From NCBI GenBank assembly GCA_016735415.1, contig JAERRP010000398.1:1-5447 (forward strand): 5,447 bases of DNA, written 5' to 3'. Position 1 is the first letter of the stretch. Every line of letters begins with the position of its first letter. A program made the translations under genes and the position numbers. The notes under the pieces are model-generated. The model was not told where the DNA came from. It saw nothing but the letters and a program-made list of their open reading frames with translations, and ran no database searches. Source of the DNA: Desulfobacterales bacterium. GTDB taxonomy: Bacteria > Desulfobacterota > Desulfobacteria > Desulfobacterales > UBA5852. This document shows positions 4,886 through 5,447 of this stretch, in pieces.

Positions 4886-5447
<562 letters not shown>

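Follow-up and report, generated by a model that had tools for sequence, protein, structure and literature searches.

An in-frame TGA at a conserved cysteine column of a C69 hydrolase gene from a Desulfobacterales contig is probably an isolated nonsense change

Main finding

The stretch of DNA analysed here, which we call the window, is 5,447 nt long, comes from a Desulfobacterales bacterium and contains six genes, all on the + strand. The last of these encodes a C69/secernin-like hydrolase and is interrupted by an in-frame TGA at a position where its relatives carry a conserved cysteine. We consider this TGA to be probably an isolated nonsense codon in a C69 gene of the Cys type, whether it is an artefact or a recent mutation. 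In this model a TGC or TGT codon of an ordinary hydrolase gene would have become TGA by a single nonsense substitution, either through an error in sequencing or assembling this short contig or because the sampled strain had mutated recently. Translation of the sequence as it stands would stop after residue 137 and give no complete enzyme, the same codon supplying a Cys in the relatives.

The first-pass annotation of this stretch had interpreted the gene as encoding a selenocysteine (Sec)-containing C69 hydrolase. The premises of that interpretation, a Cys column and Sec machinery in the relatives, were borne out, but its conclusion is unsupported: there is no hairpin fitting the SECIS model, no second UGA-bearing orthologue was found, and a kinase gene in the same window carries another TGA at a column that is not Cys. 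These three observations, together with the use of UGA as a normal stop, favour the nonsense reading. Against it stand the position of the TGA, which hits a nearly invariant Cys in a clade making wide use of selenocysteine, and the kinase TGA, which carries the strongest SECIS-like hairpin of the window. Overall, an isolated error or mutation is likelier than a new selenium protein, since the usual Sec signal is missing and a second stray stop lies nearby. We think it unlikely that UGA instead has a coding meaning at residue 138 of C69, and perhaps also at codon 329 of the kinase, inserting Sec or Cys with the help of an element outside the published SECIS model.

Genes of the window and their order

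The features discussed below are collected in Table 1.

Table 1. Features of the 5,447-nt window
Feature	Position	Strand	Remarks
Sensor histidine kinase frame (HisKA + HATPase_c)	1..1266	+	5' end missing; TGA-interrupted
Second in-frame TGA, codon 329 of the kinase frame	985..987	+	Column mostly Arg in homologues
Strong hairpin 3' of the kinase TGA	1003..1044	+	-27.1 kcal/mol, loop GACAGU, spacing 33; within the SECIS rules
Short HisKA-like protein	1287..1949	+	
Response regulator	2039..2467	+	TGA stop at the same place as the stops of close relatives
Class III aminotransferase	2604..3944	+	
DUF6206 protein	3941..4864	+	GTG start overlaps aminotransferase stop
C69/secernin-like Ntn hydrolase frame	4886..5447	+	Cut by window end; TGA as codon 138, spanned by the Pfam PF03577 match
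Cys2 codon TGC, N-terminal nucleophile	4889..4891	+	Intact; invariant in alignment A1; model alignment of L001
In-frame TGA at the conserved Cys column (GGN-*-GY)	5297..5299	+	
Weak hairpin 3' of the C69 TGA	5312..5334	+	7 bp, 9-nt loop ACUAUCACA; lacks the loop G of the SECIS model

The kinase, the HisKA protein and the response regulator form a conserved gene set. The HisKA-like protein (220 aa), lying between the full kinase and the response regulator, has no Pfam ATPase-domain match and is present in relatives as well; its H-box stretch repeats that of the kinase at 72%. The order aminotransferase, DUF6206, C69 (window 2604-5447) is likewise conserved, with all three genes in 15 of the 80 C69 loci described below, many of which are too short to tell; the loci sharing this order include contigs titled Desulfobacteraceae, Neomarinimicrobiota and Flavobacteria. 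By eye, no shared gene downstream of C69 was evident in the 11 loci checked. The window holds no repeats bearing on the C69 TGA, a scan of viral contigs gave no relative, and Rfam offered no fitting family, its two matches up to E 5 both lying far under their gathering scores.

The C69 gene apart from its TGA

The C69 frame opens with ATG TGC, runs through 137 open codons to the TGA and then stays open in the same frame up to the window end, confirming the earlier description of an ATG-led frame split between GGN and GY that afterwards continues. The Pfam Peptidase_C69 match spans the TGA (residues 2-173, E 6.1e-12, 45.7 bits against a cut-off of 23), while the partial frame scores below the cut-off of the NCBIfam C69 dipeptidase model. 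GC3 is 0.72 upstream of the TGA and 0.69 downstream, with a coding-like base composition by codon position on both sides, and the window deviates at one of the 58 columns that are at least 95% conserved in the 80 loci, within the range of the homologues. The intact flanking frame, the coding-like composition and the single departure from conserved columns indicate that the TGA lies in an otherwise kept gene.

These features also bear on the proposal that the 137-residue product is itself functional, or that an early pseudogene has become fixed in the population. The frame as read does end at residue 137, and Gly133, found in 80 of 80 loci, is Ala in the window (5282-5284, five residues before the TGA); yet there is no other decay, the departures are within the homologue range, and the truncated piece would be without the conserved YHNS and LET segments. 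We regard this proposal as very improbable. A long-standing pseudogene was rejected, with departures from conserved columns within the homologue range both in C69 and in the kinase (3 of 114).

The catalytic nucleophile of the C69 protein is, as judged by alignment and modelling, Cys2 and not residue 138. The frame has the expected N-terminal nucleophile Cys (MC at 4886-4891), Cys2 is invariant in alignment A1, and the modelled homologue L001 could be aligned with the C69 dipeptidase 5iau, from Lactobacillus farciminis, and with its C9A mutant 5img. The window C69 sequence alone matched no PDB chain; a PDB match was obtained when the alignment was the query. The window copy differs from the known C69/secernin-like Ntn hydrolases (PF03577) in its TGA at Cys138, and in the profile alignment to 5iau the GGNCG stretch is covered by a gap.

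How much the coincidence of TGA and Cys column can tell depends on the codons available to mutation. Fifteen codons of the C69 frame lie one base from TGA (14 and the site itself), five of them Cys, so a random TGA would strike some Cys about one time in three. By itself the column match is weak evidence.

The TGA column in homologues

A scan of genome contigs yielded 295 confirmed C69 relatives, the best 80 of which were kept. At the TGA column these 80 loci have TGC in 56 cases, TGT in 15, another codon in nine and TGA in none. As aligned, the nine are four Ala, three Gly, one Asn and one His, two of the Ala (L044 and L047) reflecting a one-position alignment shift beside His and Ser. Across 389 genomes of the order to which the relative G002 belongs, the 30 best-matching loci all have Cys, 11 of them duplicating loci of the 80-locus set; a further locus, L114, has Gly. 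A search with the first 137 residues against a database of 5.8 billion proteins gave 1239 relatives, and the column was read in the best 120. Leaving aside the window's own protein, 119 remain: 75 have Cys at the column, 16 have another residue, a single one is gapped there, and in 27 the protein or its alignment stops short of it. The nearest of these 119, P0002 (78%) and P0003 (74%), both have Cys. The earlier statement that the column is a conserved Cys is thus well founded.

In the search for other UGA-bearing C69 orthologues, the 80 loci had none, and three genome surveys, which read through and counted stops, returned no stop in any C69 match row: none in 57 rows from the 389 genomes of the order (51 covering residue 138), none in 31 rows from 395 genomes of the phylum (29 covering it) and none in 75 rows from 396 genomes of the class of G769, the genome of L006, titled Thermanaerothrix (72 covering it). 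Coverage of residue 138 is taken from the printed row ranges, and the surveys overlap, two phylum-survey genomes recurring from the order survey and repeats of the 80 loci being kept in. Among the best 120 of the 1239 proteins no UGA orthologue was established; apart from the window's own, only P0072 (58%) stops just at the column, ending at GGS at residue 137, either because it is a UGA orthologue or because its contig may end there.

One apparent second case was rejected. The match in L111 begins at residue 139, and proved to be a join between aminotransferase and C69: at 3864-4816 the N-terminal part of an aminotransferase continues into the C-terminal part of C69, by deletion or misassembly. 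Separately, L112 carries a second, partial C69 stretch (2550-2630) whose 27-residue match is identical to the intact copy of the same genome in L113.

Search for a SECIS element at the C69 TGA

The bacterial SECIS model, as given in PMC13188914, asks for a loop of 3-9 nt with G in the first two places, a stem of 4-16 bp, a spacing of 16-37 and an MFE of -7.5 or lower. Downstream of the C69 TGA the model finds no candidate: no 4-bp stem closes a loop with G in the first two places. With the loop-G rule dropped, the best hairpin reaches -5.1 kcal/mol, weaker than the -7.5 limit, and the 60-nt fold at this site is no better than that of shuffled sequences (z 0.59).

SelD genes of the same order served as controls, with 30 loci, one dropped as its motif was not found, leaving 29. 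The TGAs of 26 of these 29 reach -7.5 kcal/mol. Under a looser choice of the SelD TGA, 25 of 30 pass, at least one of them a wrong TGA, and a spacing of 20 with loop GGA appears in 19 of 30 rows. The chance baseline is substantial, as 33% of the 1573 window codons pass the SECIS rules. At the C69 site the rules are passed by one of 80 homologues and by a rounded 0.0 of 1000 synonymous versions (same protein, window codon usage). The latter figure indicates that no hidden signal has been built in, and the two together make the site look like that of a Cys gene. When compared with their own synonymous versions, nine of the 29 SelD controls reach p < 0.05, which shows the model to be a loose filter; it also overlooks about 13% of known selenoprotein genes, according to PMC12013277.

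These results weigh on the reading in which UGA 138 would be decoded as selenocysteine by the usual SelA/SelB/SelC/SelD with an atypical SECIS, making C69 a new selenoprotein family. Several observations argue for it: the Cys column (found in 71 of 80 loci and in all 30 of the order), the conserved sequence that goes on past the TGA, and the machinery of the clade, described below. Against it are the missing SECIS-model hairpin, the lack of another UGA orthologue in the 80 loci or the three genome surveys, a residue 138 that is not the nucleophile and aligns with another codon in nine of 80 loci, and the further TGA of the window, whose column is not Cys. Multiplying the column match by the missing SECIS gives a rough likelihood ratio of 0.4-0.5. 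We therefore consider a selenocysteine at this position to be distinctly unlikely.

Selenocysteine machinery and the decoding of UGA

The order of the relatives uses selenocysteine. SelB scores above cut-off in seven of seven relatives and a canonical tRNA-Sec (73-76 bits) is present in six of them; in the seventh, G193, the sole match over cut-off is a selC*-type tRNA of 50.6 bits, from the 150 of 942 first-look candidates that were scored. Across 14 well-known control genomes, SelB exceeds its cut-off in two and tRNA-Sec in five. Of 116 genomes of the order, 104 have a SelD match, with one in-frame TGA in all rows but two, which begin downstream of it, at profile positions 36 and 130. The suggestion of a Sec-using lineage stands as far as the relatives are concerned.

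UGA is also a normal stop in the organism of the window, as can be seen from the response regulator, whose TGA falls where its relatives stop. In the 12 of 21 tblastn rows that reach the last residue (the other nine end earlier), the next codon is TAA, TAG or TGA in every case. Genome-wide reassignment of UGA was rejected on this basis.

A more restricted possibility is that UGA is read as Cys through a selC*-type tRNA-Cys(UCA) and a second SelB, which would place Cys at residue 138 of C69 and perhaps also at codon 329 of the kinase. A tRNA-Sec-like selC* tRNA-Cys with a UCA anticodon, together with selB* and cysS*, has been reported from Desulfobacterales in the reviews PMC7609411 and PMC11415595. 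Two relatives, G002 and G193, have such a tRNA, called UCA by ARAGORN and followed directly by a second SelB, over cut-off (L177 2238-4270 and L178 2179-4229); the base before CCA is T, as opposed to G in the normal tRNA-Sec of G002 and G185. A strict pattern for this tRNA type matches three of 271 genomes, the third being G245, and the kinase column tolerates Cys (4 of 119 and 4 of 30 homologues). By the same pattern, however, the tRNA is rare, and no cysS* was seen by eye among the ORFs listed beside the two tRNAs. Moreover, delivery by SelB should still require a SECIS-like element, none of which is found at C69, and the genomes with this tRNA, G002 (L002/L082) and G193 (L106), themselves carry TGC at the C69 codon. 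Reading of this UGA as Cys thus seems highly improbable.

A second TGA in the kinase gene

The kinase TGA lies 4.3 kb from that of C69. Across 119 homologues its column holds Arg in 86, Tyr in five, Cys in four and Lys in four, among others; the 12 nearest have His, Arg, Thr or Tyr and no Cys, and in 30 loci the count is R 20, C 4, Y 2, V 2, N 1 and P 1, with no TGA. Judged by these residues, it is not a Sec column by the usual rule. The hairpin downstream is the strongest of the 1573 window codons, the same hairpin being shared by seven codons (982-1000), with p 0.016 against synonymous versions. Thirteen of 30 open kinase homologues likewise pass the SECIS rule, and two relatives with an Arg codon have a hairpin that matches it in spacing and loop size (-16.1 and -20.4 kcal/mol), so that the coding sequence itself accounts for at least part of the hairpin. 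The mostly Arg column, the nearest homologues lacking Cys and the hairpin frequency in open genes speak against selenocysteine at the kinase TGA. An unnamed histidine kinase is listed among unverified new selenoproteins in PMC8318568. TGAs in two more distant kinase matches (G358 and G072) were discarded as parallels, since the column there is Phe and Ser and the aligned part has no stop.

The C69 TGA therefore has a Cys column and no hairpin, and the kinase TGA a hairpin and no Cys column. In our judgement, two stray TGAs in a 5.4-kb contig suit nonsense changes better than two different unproven recodings. There is a cost to this explanation. The window shows no frameshifts and no general decay, so chance would yield two TGAs only at a high error rate; with 0.001 errors per base, the probability of at least two among about 67 one-step sites is 2.5e-4, and two stray TGAs at ordinary error rates are unlikely. 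Departures from conserved columns amount to 1 of 35 in the response regulator and 0 of 27 in the HisKA-like protein; they are near the top of the homologue range in the aminotransferase (3 of 46, with one of 27 homologues as high) and in DUF6206 (4 of 66, with two of 33 as high). We infer that the C69 change is an error or mutation.

Relation to known selenoproteins and implications

The window C69 gene resembles bacterial selenoproteins with Cys homologues, such as the SelD of the order, in having an in-frame TGA, a conserved Cys column and a Sec-using clade. Unlike them, it has no SECIS-model hairpin, and no second UGA orthologue was found in the loci, genomes and proteins searched. Single TGA-containing metagenome sequences have been reported without a conclusion, and were left open as possible sequencing errors, in PMC2398784; in comparison with these, the window gene has a conserved Cys column, yet again no SECIS-model hairpin. 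Words beginning with "peptidase" do not occur in the main text of the selenoproteome reviews PMC13188914 and PMC9312934, and the literature joining selenocysteine with secernin, going by its listing, describes no C69 selenoprotein. This agrees with the original remark that C69 is not known as an established selenoprotein family.

A selenocysteine-containing C69 hydrolase, if confirmed, would be a new selenoprotein family, a claim that the evidence does not carry. The case shows that, even where a clade is rich in Sec, a single TGA/Cys pair in one contig is insufficient for such a claim, and that another TGA on that contig is worth heeding as a caution. Were the UGA nevertheless read through, either a hydrolase family outside thiol redox chemistry would join the selenoproteome, with an accessory Cys of the enzyme replaced by Sec, or the gene would be a natural target of UGA-to-Cys recoding by the selC*-type tRNA-Cys(UCA) of the clade.
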